From positions 1 through 41,910 of the forward strand of contig RFZL01000017.1 in assembly GCA_009920665.1 (NCBI GenBank): 41,910 nucleotides of DNA, written 5' to 3'. The notes under the pieces were generated by a model that was not told where the DNA came from, ran no database searches, and was given only the letters and a program-made list of their open reading frames with translations. The translations under genes were made by a program, and so were the position numbers. The stretch is from Alphaproteobacteria bacterium (GTDB lineage Bacteria > Pseudomonadota > Alphaproteobacteria > Puniceispirillales > Puniceispirillaceae). Shown piece by piece: positions 316 through 9,746 of the stretch; the stretch's first letter is position 1, and each line of letters begins with the position of its first letter.

Positions 316-1083
316 TCAGGCCGGGGCGCCGACCGCGCGCAGCGCCAGCGCGGCATAGGCCTGTGAGCCCGGGCATTTCAGATCATAGATCAGAACAGGT
401 TGACCGAAAGATGGCGCCTCCGATACCCGGACATTGCGCGGCACCACGGTATTATAGACAAGATCGCCAAAATGCGCGCGCACGTCATTCGCCACCATTG
501 CCGAGAGCTTGTTGCGGGTATCATACATCGTCAAAACGATACCCTGCATTTGCAGATCACCATTCAGACCGGCGCGCACCGCCTCGACCGTGCGCATCAG
601 CTGTGTCAGCCCTTCCAACGCATAGAATTCACACTGCAACGGCACCAGAACAGAGGTCGCAGCCGCCAGCGCATTAACCGTCAGCATGCCAAGGGATGGT
701 GGACAATCTATAATAACATACTGATATTGTTTGCTTATTTTTTTCAATGCCATCTTCAGCCTGAATTCCCGATCAGGCATGTCCGACAATTCGACTTCGG
801 CCGCGGACAGATCGACGATGGTCGGGATGATATCGAGCCTCGGTACCTGCGTCGCCTGAATCGCCGCGTCGGCGGCGCTACTGCCGGCGATGACGCTGTA
901 GCTGTTATGCGTCCTGTCCTCAATCCCGAGGCCGGTGCTGGCATTGCCCTGCGGGTCAAAATCAACAAGCAGCACCGACCGGCCGCAGGCGGCCAGCGCG
1001 GTGGCAAGATTGATCGAGGTTGTTGTCTTTCCCACACCGCCCTTCTGATTGGCGACGGCGATGATACGCTGGGCTTGCGGCAT
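316..1083 (-). CDS. parA: Chromosome partitioning ATPase ParA (Soj type)
   Basis: A 255-residue ParA/MinD-superfamily ATPase that moves ParB-bound origins to the cell poles. A deviant Walker A motif, KGGVGKTT, is at residues 14-21. It is followed by DFDPQGNAS (about 41-49) and a Walker B-like IIDCPPSLGML (about 124-133). VPRNVRVSEAPSFGQPV and YDLKCPGSQAY near the end are typical of chromosomal ParA. There is no N-terminal DNA-binding extension, as in the short chromosomal form. It is the last gene of mnmE-mnmG-rsmG-parA, 19 bp after rsmG. parB, the usual next gene, is absent here. The last dozen codons are GC-rich like the fragment beyond, unlike the rest of the gene. Confidence 0.95.
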   Translation of the reverse strand: MPQAQRIIAVANQKGGVGKTTTSINLATALAACGRSVLLVDFDPQGNASTGLGIEDRTHNSYSVIAGSSAADAAIQATQVPRLDIIPTIVDLSAAEVELSDMPDREFRLKMALKKISKQYQYVIIDCPPSLGMLTVNALAAATSVLVPLQCEFYALEGLTQLMRTVEAVRAGLNGDLQMQGIVLTMYDTRNKLSAMVANDVRAHFGDLVYNTVVPRNVRVSEAPSFGQPVLIYDLKCPGSQAYAALALRAVGAPA

Positions 1084-5207: not shown

Positions 5208-5726
5208 ATGACCATTCACGCATCAGCGACAGGGGACTTCCACACGACCCTGCACGGTCGGCTCGGATATATGCGCGCCATCAGTGACGGCCGCCATCTG
5301 ATCCGTCTGGACTGGGATCAAAGCCCCTTTGCCGCGCCCGACAATCCGGATGATGTTTCACGTGAAACATGCCGCCAGCTTGCAGCCTATTTCGCCGGTG
5401 AACGGCGCGCGTTCACCTTGCCACTCCGCGCTGCCGGAACATCGGCATCCGGCCGGTCCTGGCTCGAGGCCATGGCACAGATTCCCTACGGGACAACGAT
5501 GAGCTATGGTGAATTTGCGGCACTTGCCGGCAAGCCAAGGGCGCCGCGCGCCGCCGGTACGGCCTGTGCGACCAACCCGCTTCCTGTAATCTATCCCTGC
5601 CACCGCGTCGTGCGAGCCGGCGGTCAGCTCGGGAATTATGGGGGTGGCAGCAGCCTGCCGCCCCAGCATCCGGATAATCTCGGCCGCAAACAGGCGCTGA
5701 TTGATCTTGAACGGCGGTTCGCCTAG
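5208..5726 (+). CDS. ogt: Methylated-DNA--protein-cysteine methyltransferase (O6-alkylguanine repair)
   Basis: Suicide repair protein that transfers the alkyl group from O6-alkylguanine to its own cysteine. The active site PCHRV has Cys131 and is preceded by the conserved NPLPVIY; the substrate-binding region [13 protein letters not shown] lies at about 92-104. A GAAGGG ribosome site at 5197-5202 is best spaced for ATG 5208; GTG 5202 and ATG 5205 are alternatives. It is the only plus-strand gene left of the origin, separating rho from mnmE. Its TAG stop overlaps the rho stop in the shared CTAG at 5723-5726. Residues 50-54 (VSRET) are encoded by the second parS site. Confidence 0.93.
5354..5369. 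other. parS centromere site (copy 2)
   Basis: A second perfect TGTTTCACGTGAAACA, inside ogt and 3.2 kb from the proposed origin. It is identical over all 16 bases to the site in rsmG although the two genes are unrelated, so the identity must come from DNA-level selection. Confidence 0.92.
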
Positions 5727-7114: not shown

Positions 7115-7543
7115 TCAGAACGGCTTCACGACCGCCATGACAACAATGATGATCATCAGCACTGTCGGCACCTCGTTCCAGATCCGGTAGATGCGGGCTG
7201 GACGCGGTTGCTCGTCAGCCTCCAGCTGGCGGCGCATCTTGGAAAAAATCCCGTGGCACGCCGCCATACCAAGAACGCAGACCACTTTCACCTGCATCCA
7301 GATTTCCGTCAGCAGTTGCGGCGCCAGGACAAGCATCCAGATGCCGAACAGGAAGCTTGCGATCATCGCCGGGTTCATGATCGCCTTCAGCAACCTGCGT
7401 TCCATCACCTTGAAGGTTTCCGCACGGACCGACCCGATCACGGTATCAGCATGATAGACATAGAGCCGCGGCAAATAGAGCAGCCCGGCCATCCATGCAA
7501 TGATGGAAATGACATGCAGCGCCTTGATGATCTCGTAACTCAT
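7115..7543 (-). CDS. hemJ: Protoporphyrinogen oxidase HemJ (UPF0093)
   Basis: A 142-residue membrane protein with about four hydrophobic helices that oxidises protoporphyrinogen IX to protoporphyrin IX in haem synthesis. The start YEIIKALHVISIIAWMAGL with His10, and the following YLPRLYVYH, are the family signature. It overlaps hemE by 4 bp (ATGA at 7540-7543), so two haem genes are translated together. Family assignment is firm; activity is inferred from the family. Confidence 0.92.
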   Translation of the reverse strand: MSYEIIKALHVISIIAWMAGLLYLPRLYVYHADTVIGSVRAETFKVMERRLLKAIMNPAMIASFLFGIWMLVLAPQLLTEIWMQVKVVCVLGMAACHGIFSKMRRQLEADEQPRPARIYRIWNEVPTVLMIIIVVMAVVKPF

Positions 7544-8571
7544 GACATCCGTCCTCGCACCCGGTTGACCAGATCATGCACATGCCTCTCCGGCGTTTCC
7601 GGTGTTATGCCATGACCAAGATTGAAGATATGTGGTCTGCCGTCCACAGCCTCAAGAATTGATCCAATGGCGCGGTTCATCGCCTCGCCGCCAGCGATCA
7701 GGCTGAGCGGGTCAAGATTGCCCTGCAATGTGACATGAGCTGGCAGATGCCGGGCGGCCCAGGCAATATCGACGCCATGATCAAGGCCGATGCCGTCAAT
7801 TGGTGTTTCATTACAATAGGCGACCAGCCCTTCACCAATGCCTTTTGGAAATCCGATGACCGGCTGCGTGATTCCACGTCTGCGGAGAGTTTCAATGATG
7901 CGTTTGGCTGGCTCACTTACCACGCGGCGCCTGAAATGTGCCGGCACAGCACCAGCCCAGCTGTCAAACAGCATCAGGGCATCCGCGCCAGCCTGCGCCT
8001 GGATTATGAGAAATTCGATGGTTGCCGCTGTCACAACATCAAGCAGTTCATCGAATTTGCGGTCATTGTCCCACATCCATTTTCGCGCGGTGGCAAAATC
8101 ACGTGAGGACTGGCCTTCAAGCATATAGGTGATGATCGTCCAAGGGGCGCCGGCGAAACCGATCAGTGCCTTTTCAGGTGCCAGTGTCTCCCTGCAAAGC
8201 GAGAGTGACCTCGCAACCGGTGACAATTTACCGGCAATGTGATCGAGAGAATTTTCATCGATTTCGGAAGGATCGGTAAGTGGGTCGAGCAGAGGCCCCT
8301 GTCCCGTCACAAATCTGACATTTCTGTTCATTGCCCATGGGACCAGCAGAATATCCGAGAAGATAATGGCGGCGTCAAAGCCGAATTTGTCTATCGGTTG
8401 CAGGGTGACCTCGACAGCTTTCTCCGGGTTCAGGCAAAAAGAAATGAAATCGGGCTCTGATGCGCGCACCTCTTTGTATTCGGGGAGATAGCGTCCTGCC
8501 TGGCGCATGAGCCAGACTGGCGGTATCCGGTGGGCCGTGCCGGACAATGTTTCGAGGAAGATGTTTGTCAT
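7540..8571 (-). CDS. hemE: Uroporphyrinogen decarboxylase
   Basis: Cytoplasmic enzyme converting uroporphyrinogen III to coproporphyrinogen III by four decarboxylations. The substrate-binding block LMRQAGRYLPEY is at residues 21-32. The catalytic aspartate lies in FSDILLVPWAM, and GHGITPETPE is near the C-terminus. Length is 343, as usual. Its start directly borders the proposed origin, as in Caulobacter, where the hemE promoter is part of the origin. The first codon follows an AT-rich leader. Confidence 0.97.
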   Translation of the reverse strand: MTNIFLETLSGTAHRIPPVWLMRQAGRYLPEYKEVRASEPDFISFCLNPEKAVEVTLQPIDKFGFDAAIIFSDILLVPWAMNRNVRFVTGQGPLLDPLTDPSEIDENSLDHIAGKLSPVARSLSLCRETLAPEKALIGFAGAPWTIITYMLEGQSSRDFATARKWMWDNDRKFDELLDVVTAATIEFLIIQAQAGADALMLFDSWAGAVPAHFRRRVVSEPAKRIIETLRRRGITQPVIGFPKGIGEGLVAYCNETPIDGIGLDHGVDIAWAARHLPAHVTLQGNLDPLSLIAGGEAMNRAIGSILEAVDGRPHIFNLGHGITPETPERHVHDLVNRVRGRMS

Positions 8572-8921
8572 GACGGTACTCTCTATACAATAGATAGATA
8601 TTTATAAAGGAAAGGATGGATTTGTAGGCCTTGTGGAAAAGCCATATTTCACTTTTATCCCTGACTTATCCCCATTTCTGGCAACAGGACCGATAGCGTT
8701 TGGCCAAGTCTGATCGGCGCTTTGTGGAACGATCCCCACAATTCGCCTGGTAACAGGGCAATGTAATCCGCACGGGGATGGAATCTGTCTTTGCCCCCGT
8801 TTATGCACAGGCTGCCCCCGGCATTCATGTTTCATCCCCAACAGCCGGCAACTGACTCACATCAAATCCCCAGCACGTGAAAACCCGTGACAGCCCTGAC
8901 CGGACACCCTAATTTTACCAC
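8572..8921. other. oriC: Probable chromosomal replication origin (oriC)
   Basis: A 350-bp gene-free stretch between divergent hemE and the PEP synthase/PPDK regulator, the location of the origin in Caulobacter and Rickettsia. Bases 8581-8610 are about 77% AT, a candidate unwinding element. DnaA-box-like 9-mers are TGTGGAAAA (8632-8640, reverse sense, one mismatch), TTATCCCTG (8655-8663), TTATCCCCA (8666-8674, one mismatch) and TTATGCACA (8801-8809, fits TTATNCACA). A GANTC site is at 8854-8858. Transcription is away from it on both sides, and parS sites lie 3.2 and 6.9 kb away. No TTAA-N7-TTAA CtrA sites were found. Inferred from position and motifs, not from measured replication. Confidence 0.82.
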
Positions 8922-9746
8922 ATGAATGACGCGACCCTGCATATCCATCTGGTGTCTGATTCCACAGGCGAGACCGTGCATCAGATCACCCGCGCCTGCG
9001 TTGCCCAGTTTTCGAATGTGCGGACGACAGAACATGTGTGGACACTTGTCCGCAGCCACAATCATGTCGACGCTGTGTTCGCCGGTGTCGACCGCAATCC
9101 GGGCGTGCTGTTGATGAGCGTTGTCGACGAGGATCTGCGTGCCGAGTTTGAGCGTCGCTGCACCGAGCGTGGCATCCCGCATGTGTCGGTGCTTGATCCT
9201 GTCGTCGATCTGCTTGGGCGGATCCTTGGCAAGCCGATGCGCAATCGCCCCGGTGGCCAGCGTCAGCTCGACACCGCCTATTTCGACCGGATGGCGGCGG
9301 TCGATTTCGCCGTCCGTCACGATGACGGGCTGAACATGGCCGAACTTCATGACGCAGACATCCTGCTTGTCGGGGTTTCGAGAACATCGAAGACACCGAC
9401 ATCGATGTATCTGGCGCATCGCGGCTACAAGGTGGCAAATTACGCGCTGGTCCCGGGCGTTCCCTTTCCGGCACATTATATTGACAGACTGAAGCTGTTT
9501 GTTGTTGGACTCACCAATGACCCGAAACGCCTCAGCGTTGTCCGCAAGACCCGCCAGATCGCACAATCGGATGAAAGCAATGTCACCTATACCGACCTCG
9601 AGCGGATCACCGAGGAGGTGCGTGACGCGCGCCGTCTTTTTGCTCGAAACCAATGGCCGGTGATCGATGTCACCAGACGTTCGGTCGAGGAAACCGCCGC
9701 GGCCGTCATCCAGCTTCATACCAACTGGCAGGAAGAAAATTCGTGA
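8922..9746 (+). CDS. ppsR: PEP synthase / pyruvate phosphate dikinase regulatory kinase-pyrophosphorylase (DUF299)
   Basis: A 274-residue bifunctional regulator that inactivates PEP synthase or PPDK by ADP-dependent phosphorylation and reactivates it by phosphorolysis. The start carries the conserved LVSDSTGET (10-18). The P-loop-like GVSRTSKT is at 151-158, followed by TPTSMYLAHRGYKVANYALVPG. I cannot tell from sequence whether the target is PEP synthase or PPDK. It is the first gene on the right arm of the proposed origin, and its TGA overlaps the GTG of maf. Confidence 0.93.
   Translation: MNDATLHIHLVSDSTGETVHQITRACVAQFSNVRTTEHVWTLVRSHNHVDAVFAGVDRNPGVLLMSVVDEDLRAEFERRCTERGIPHVSVLDPVVDLLGRILGKPMRNRPGGQRQLDTAYFDRMAAVDFAVRHDDGLNMAELHDADILLVGVSRTSKTPTSMYLAHRGYKVANYALVPGVPFPAHYIDRLKLFVVGLTNDPKRLSVVRKTRQIAQSDESNVTYTDLERITEEVRDARRLFARNQWPVIDVTRRSVEETAAAVIQLHTNWQEENS

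Follow-up and report, generated by a model that had tools for sequence, protein, structure and literature searches.

Known and predicted replication origins beside hemE

Among the described systems closest to the locus reported here, the Caulobacter crescentus origin (Cori) was located between hemE and CC0001, a member of COG1806, where a stretch of near 400 bp combines an AT-rich block with few strong DnaA boxes and weak boxes of the TCCCCA type (excerpts of PMC1914354 and PMC4285127). According to the available part of the review PMC4285127, the weak DnaA sites of Caulobacter, known as W-boxes, have TCCCCA as their consensus. The same flanking genes enclose the predicted origin of Rickettsia prowazekii, which measures 384 bp and for which CtrA and IHF sites were reported, and the hemE-COG1806 place was taken by one paper as the ancestral place of the alphaproteobacterial origin, whereby none to seven CtrA sites per origin were predicted for Wolbachia and its relatives (excerpt of PMC1914354). 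For Bacillus subtilis, the basal unwinding system (BUS) was described as a DnaA box adjoining an AT block, followed by a short spacer and at least three DnaA-trios (excerpt of PMC8287927). Among the papers listed by a literature search, none dealt with a SAR116 origin.

The DNA analysed here, referred to as the window, is a stretch of 41,910 nucleotides which constitutes one contig (C69) of a 2.69 Mb assembly (214 contigs, 99% complete), the source genome being taken as that of a SAR116-type (Puniceispirillaceae-like) alphaproteobacterium. The gene order was identified as parA, rsmG, mnmG, mnmE, a methylguanine-DNA methyltransferase gene, rho, a UPF0093 gene (presumably hemJ-like), hemE, an intergenic gap, PPSR and maf. 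To the left, the gap is bordered by hemE (uroporphyrinogen decarboxylase; 7540-8571, minus strand; Pfam PF01208, 350.5 bits), which reads away from the origin, and to the right by the gene of the PEP synthase/PPDK regulatory kinase-pyrophosphorylase, PPSR (8922-9746, plus strand; Pfam PF03618, 294.4 bits). These borders leave exactly 8572-8921, the 350 bp that a first-pass annotation of the sequence had described as gene-free, and with hemE on the minus and PPSR on the plus strand the divergent transcription noted there was likewise recovered. Its further statement that the Caulobacter and Rickettsia origins lie between hemE and this regulator gene agrees with the accessible part of PMC1914354.

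Based on its sequence and on the comparisons given below, the entire intergenic region (8572-8921) is very probably the chromosomal oriC of this SAR116-type bacterium, an assignment founded on the gap between divergent genes, on family gaps of matching size and on the skew switch in relatives; it is an origin ordinary in kind and at the usual place for its class. With Cori it shares flanking genes, size, AT-rich block, few strong boxes and TCCCCA-type weak boxes, but the CtrA sites, the TGATCCACA G-box and the IHF-consensus site are missing from the gap; the G-box is absent from all 28 family gaps compared, source included. The flanks are also those of the R. prowazekii origin, whereas CtrA and IHF sites of consensus type, as reported there, do not occur here. 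Two closed genomes of the same family (G015 and G020) possess the same flanking genes and comparable box places, G020 differing by two exact boxes versus one in this gap.

Conservation of the gap within the family and the class

Within the family, PPSR was matched in 52 of 61 genomes and 30 loci were returned, 28 of which were used: L013, whose contig ends before hemE, and L024, with an unaligned hemE start, were left out, as were L033 to L038 (repeat contigs of the same family set), while for L021, with its broken match, the beginning of hemE was set manually. In these 28 genomes, source included, the gap is 350-485 bp long and its boxes occupy matching positions, the layout from hemE onwards being AT block, reverse box 1, forward boxes, ATCCCC[AG] block and, in 27 of them, TGACA; the genomes stem from four (g1, g4, g5, g6) of 11 genera, and some are near-identical and hence not independent. 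Place, anatomy and conservation of the origin are documented at the sequence level.

Beyond the family, hemE was found divergent beside PPSR in 62 of 74 alphaproteobacterial loci (27 of 28 in a first and 35 of 46 in a second set, the 11 misses of the latter including the short fetches L141 and L164). These loci derive from 114 genomes of the class, 78 with a PPSR match: 30 had loci, two of them from the family, and of the other 48 genomes 46 were fetched, G102 and G108 being left out as fragments. L094, belonging to the same family, was excluded from the other-family motif counts. No PPSR match was obtained in 36 of the 114 genomes; 12 of the 20 listed among these are smaller than 2 Mb.

Anatomy of the gap

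The gap possesses a GC content of 0.49 as compared to 0.52-0.66 per kb across the window, and is thus richer in AT than its surroundings. Next to hemE resides an AT-rich block (8577-8613), probably the DNA-unwinding element, which contains the 30-mer with the highest AT content in the window (83%, beginning at 8584); for 8581-8610, annotated earlier as 77% AT, 76.7% was measured, and the first 60 bases of the gap are 62-78% AT in all 28 family gaps. Adjoining this element, DnaA box 1 (TTTTCCACA, 8632-8640, minus strand) deviates from the consensus TTATCCACA by one mismatch; its place is aligned across the family and reads TTATCCACA in G020. All further boxes lie on the plus strand, namely the degenerate box TTATCCCTG (8655-8663), which stands 11 bp ahead of the next box and is box-like in several relatives, the one-mismatch box TTATCCCCA (8666-8674), which includes an ATCCCCA and whose place holds TTATCCACA in nine of the 28 family gaps, the degenerate box TAATCCGCA (8764-8772) with the core ATCCGCA at 8766, reading TTATCC- in several relatives, and the exact box TTATGCACA (8801-8809), found by motif search. 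The one full box and the two one-mismatch boxes of the first-pass annotation were thus reproduced at their positions; a looser box mentioned there bears no coordinates.

Boxes with at most one mismatch number three in the gap, as compared to 0.35 on average after dinucleotide shuffling (2000 shuffles, p 0.006), and no other 350-bp stretch of the window is as dense in them, the cluster being above chance; the window overall shows no box enrichment (15 versus 11.9 expected), and the assembly holds nine exact boxes in 2.69 Mb as compared to 19 for the reversed pattern. Taken alone, the box counts are modest, the weight coming from parS, skew and conservation. The suspicion that boxes recur at intervals near 32 bp was rejected, as spacing counts gave no class-wide rule.

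Between box 1 and the AT block, a possible DnaA-trio stretch (8614-8631, minus strand) is separated from box 1 by a 4-base spacer and is weak in the window. Box, adjoining AT block, short spacer and first GAT trio correspond to the B. subtilis BUS, but unlike there the further trios of the window are irregular, the first alone being clear (3'-GAT-5', CTA on the box strand). By visual count, 20 of 28 family gaps have CTA at the offset of the first trio, and trios beyond the first are clearer in other genera of the family than in the window. At the opposite end, GTGACA (8887-8892) and TAATTT (8910-8915), 17 bases apart on the plus strand, form the probable PPSR promoter (8887-8915) within the origin; TGACA, read as the PPSR -35 element, is kept in 27 of 28 family gaps. 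As the -10-like TAATTT ends only 6 bases ahead of the PPSR ATG, the PPSR message may be leaderless.

By analogy with Caulobacter and the Bacillus basal unwinding system, DnaA would occupy an array made up of the exact box, both near boxes and, more weakly, several W-box-like ATCCCCA sites, in which box 1 alone does not face PPSR. From the reverse box 1, DnaA would then open the AT-rich block adjoining hemE, where the helicase would be loaded, and ParB acting on two parS sites 3-7 kb off would subsequently segregate the new origins. That DnaA binds here, that the steps follow in this order and that ATCCCCA sites are of weak affinity is predicted from these two model systems.

ATCCCCA sites as putative weak DnaA-binding sites

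ATCCCCA, which contains the Caulobacter W-box word TCCCCA, occurs four times in one orientation in the gap, namely at 8668 (inside the box TTATCCCCA) and, on the plus strand, at 8732-8738, 8834-8840 and 8866-8872, a number reached in none of 2000 shuffles, whereby the p values for window and family are post hoc, the motif having been chosen after viewing the family alignment. The whole window holds eight copies on both strands, half of them inside the gap; these four had escaped the first-pass annotation. The 8834 site belongs to the most conserved blocks of the gap and is kept in 28 of 28 family gaps, reading ATCCCCA in 24 and ATCCCCG in four. Together the family gaps contain 42 copies versus 2.4 expected, 40 of them pointing towards PPSR, and the density of 3.73 per kb is 36 times that of 800 kb of SAR116-family genome (0.10 per kb). 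When words were counted with no preset motif, TTATCCACA words came out on top in the class sample and, AT repeats aside, also in the family gaps.

In other families the motif is likewise abundant, with 25 copies in 16 of the 27 gaps of the first set (2.8 expected) and 30 copies in 21 of the 35 gaps of the second set (3.2 expected), which was fetched once the motif was fixed; none of 500 shuffles reaches the count in either set, and among the 62 gaps, with 55 copies versus 6 expected, 25 are devoid of any. The reversed word ACCCCTA stays at chance in both sets (0 versus 1.3 and 3 versus 1.4). This abundance of ATCCCCA, in the present gap and across alphaproteobacterial hemE-PPSR gaps, is what is new here; a literature search, which left subscription journals mostly outside its reach, retrieved no survey of W-boxes over Alphaproteobacteria.

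Single-base variants of TTATCCACA number 27, and the commonest of them in the 62 other-family gaps is TTATCCCCA (20 copies, the next variant 10), whose density amounts to 0.89 per kb in family gaps versus 0.005 in 800 kb of G015 and G020. TCCCCA lacking the preceding A is barely enriched (14 versus 7.9 and 14 versus 8.3; 25 of 500 shuffles each). From these observations, the W-box can be read as a DnaA box that carries C instead of A at position 7 and is often shortened at its left. The alternative that 8572-8921 is oriC, but that its ATCCCCA sites are bound by a protein other than DnaA, is regarded as the less probable one, without being remote: no DnaA box is as constant as the ATCCCC block at 8834, which reads TTATCCCC- in just one of the 27 family gaps with listed forms, and orientation differs by family, 37 of the 55 other-family copies pointing the opposite way, towards hemE. 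Against this stand the gradation of ATCCCCA into the top TTATCCACA variant, the near-chance frequency of TCCCCA without its A, as expected of a shortened DnaA box, and the report of TCCCCA as DnaA W-box in Caulobacter (excerpt of PMC4285127).

The class of weak DnaA sites known from Caulobacter is probably general in Alphaproteobacteria, as judged from motif counts. To the broader reading, namely that W-box-type ATCCCCA is a second, ancient type of DnaA site spread over the whole class and not a Caulobacter invention, that one such site serves as the fixed anchor of the SAR116 origin and that the class shares low-affinity sites more than CtrA, an even chance is assigned. As to whether the ATCCCCA class is specific to Alphaproteobacteria, a comparison was made with 20 stretches upstream of dnaA, one per family, from other classes in the phylum, which are presumed rather than established origins; in this small sample the ratios of TTATCCCCA to TTATCCACA (20:27 in Alphaproteobacteria versus 2:9, Fisher p 0.18) and of ATCCCCA to ATCCACA (55:64 versus 9:19, p 0.21) were obtained. 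If the W-box class is general, the role of low-affinity DnaA sites becomes testable in many isolates, and it is these conserved ATCCCCA sites that a specialist may wish to put to the test.

CtrA, its circuit and other regulatory motifs

The absence of CtrA sites claimed by the first-pass annotation was confirmed, as the gap lacks TTAA altogether and no TTAA-N7-TTAA with up to one mismatch occurs in the window. The remark made there, that timing control may therefore differ, was only half right: CtrA sites being commonly absent from alphaproteobacterial origins, their absence alone is no sign of unusual control. An exact CtrA site was found in one of 28 family gaps and in seven of 62 other-family gaps, where the eight sites nevertheless exceed chance (2.0 expected; 4 versus 0.5 and 4 versus 1.5 in the two sets). 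Assembly-wide, the exact sites match the reversed control (15 versus 16 places). CtrA sites were rejected as a feature of this origin, being absent from gap and window and rare in family gaps.

The assembly encodes seven OmpR-type regulators, one of which is CtrA-like (best match NF045991, 239.6 bits, the next family 148), its score being below the curated cut-off of 350. GcrA (PF07750) matches 54 and the CcrM-like RAMA domain (PF18755, which we take to be part of CcrM) 55 of 61 family genomes, source included in both cases; among 14 named control genomes, RAMA matches Caulobacter only, and GcrA matches Caulobacter and, oddly, Sulfolobus. The genes of the CtrA circuit have hence probably been retained while the origin itself lacks CtrA sites, in agreement with the accessible part of a review (PMC4468827) and with the low number of other-family gaps (seven of 62) that hold an exact site. 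It is very improbable that the oriC is directly controlled by CtrA through non-consensus sites, as in Caulobacter: the circuit genes are present, one loose TTWW-N7-TTWW lies at 8655-8669 and exact sites are enriched in the pooled other-family gaps, but the gap is devoid of TTAA, a single family gap holds an exact site and the assembly count equals its control.

The IHF consensus WATCAN5WTR is absent from the gap and is not enriched in the class gaps (3 versus 3.8 and 7 versus 5.3 expected). GANTC occurs twice in the gap and is absent from 21 of the 28 family gaps, its counts in the class gaps lying above those of shuffles (66 versus 53 and 85 versus 64).

Partition sites, GC skew and the position of dnaA

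Two perfect copies of the 16-mer that we take to be the parS consensus were identified by motif search, one inside rsmG (1652-1667) and one inside the methylguanine-DNA methyltransferase gene (5354-5369). Located 6.9 and 3.2 kb from the gap, they are the only parS sites of the assembly at up to one mismatch. Both lie in coding sequence and translate as VSRET in the respective gene products. The window also encodes the chromosome partition ATPase ParA (316-1083, minus strand; Pfam AAA_31, 208.5 bits), named by family and place. A perfect parS 16-mer is present in 49 of 61 family genomes and absent from 12, six of which reach 90% completeness or more with contamination not exceeding 5%. G020 carries two sites 3.9 and 7.5 kb from PPSR. 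In G015 (C1), 18 perfect sites were counted, eight clustering 3.6-8.5 kb from PPSR and the rest scattered round the chromosome, as compared to at most three in each of the other 60 family genomes searched.

GC skew was sampled in 20 stretches of 20 kb each from G015 (2,753,527 bp) and G020 (2,592,803 bp), which consist of one contig each. In G020, all 20 stretches behave as expected, being negative left and positive right of the gap; in G015, 18 of 20 do so, the exceptions being +0.014 on the left and -0.004 on the far side, and some of the sampled stretches are near zero. In G015, the switch falls between stretches whose centres lie 18.6 kb to the left and 11.4 kb to the right of the gap, in G020 between those at 10.6 kb (left) and 11.4 kb (right). 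On a contig of the same-genus genome G056, a weak switch runs in the same direction (the five stretches on the right are positive, those on the left +0.003 and -0.026), as it does in the window itself (-0.065 left, +0.009 right), whose cumulative minimum, in a source genome split into 214 contigs, lies near 15 kb and not at 8.7 kb. The dnaA gene, whose product carries the motif GGRDHTTV, which we assume to be a DnaA motif, resides on another contig of the source assembly; lying ~87 kb away from the gap in G015 and ~76 kb away in G020, it does not mark the skew switch.

That the gap is a mere divergent promoter with DnaA-regulated genes, the origin lying elsewhere, e.g., beside dnaA, is scarcely credible, since the conserved promoter-like TGACA/TAATTT pair ahead of PPSR and the location of dnaA on another contig are outweighed by closed relatives whose skew switches at the gap and not at dnaA 76-87 kb off, by parS sites found only here in the assembly and by the recurrence of the hemE-PPSR pair in 62 of 74 other-family loci. 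The oriC proposed by the first-pass annotation is thus backed by the parS pair, the skew switch of relatives, the layout common to 28 genomes and the gene pair. A skew switch elsewhere, named there as refuting evidence, is shown by neither closed relative, both switching at the gap.

With this, a probable origin is fixed for a marine lineage whose genomes were encountered here mostly in fragmented form, and growth rates could accordingly be read from metagenome coverage (peak-to-trough). More widely, for most alphaproteobacterial families with a PPSR that was found and checked, the probable origin is marked by the hemE-PPSR pair.

As to the right border of the gap, PPSR shares 99% identity with the corresponding protein of G054, but HemE just 85%. 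Recombination at the origin was considered for this contrast and rejected, and because DNA identity to G054 runs along 19.5 kb without a break, PPSR is probably merely under more constraint than HemE. Two assemblies near the source by PPSR, L033 (99%) and L034 (88%), were deposited as Rhodobiaceae and Rhodospirillaceae bacterium, respectively.
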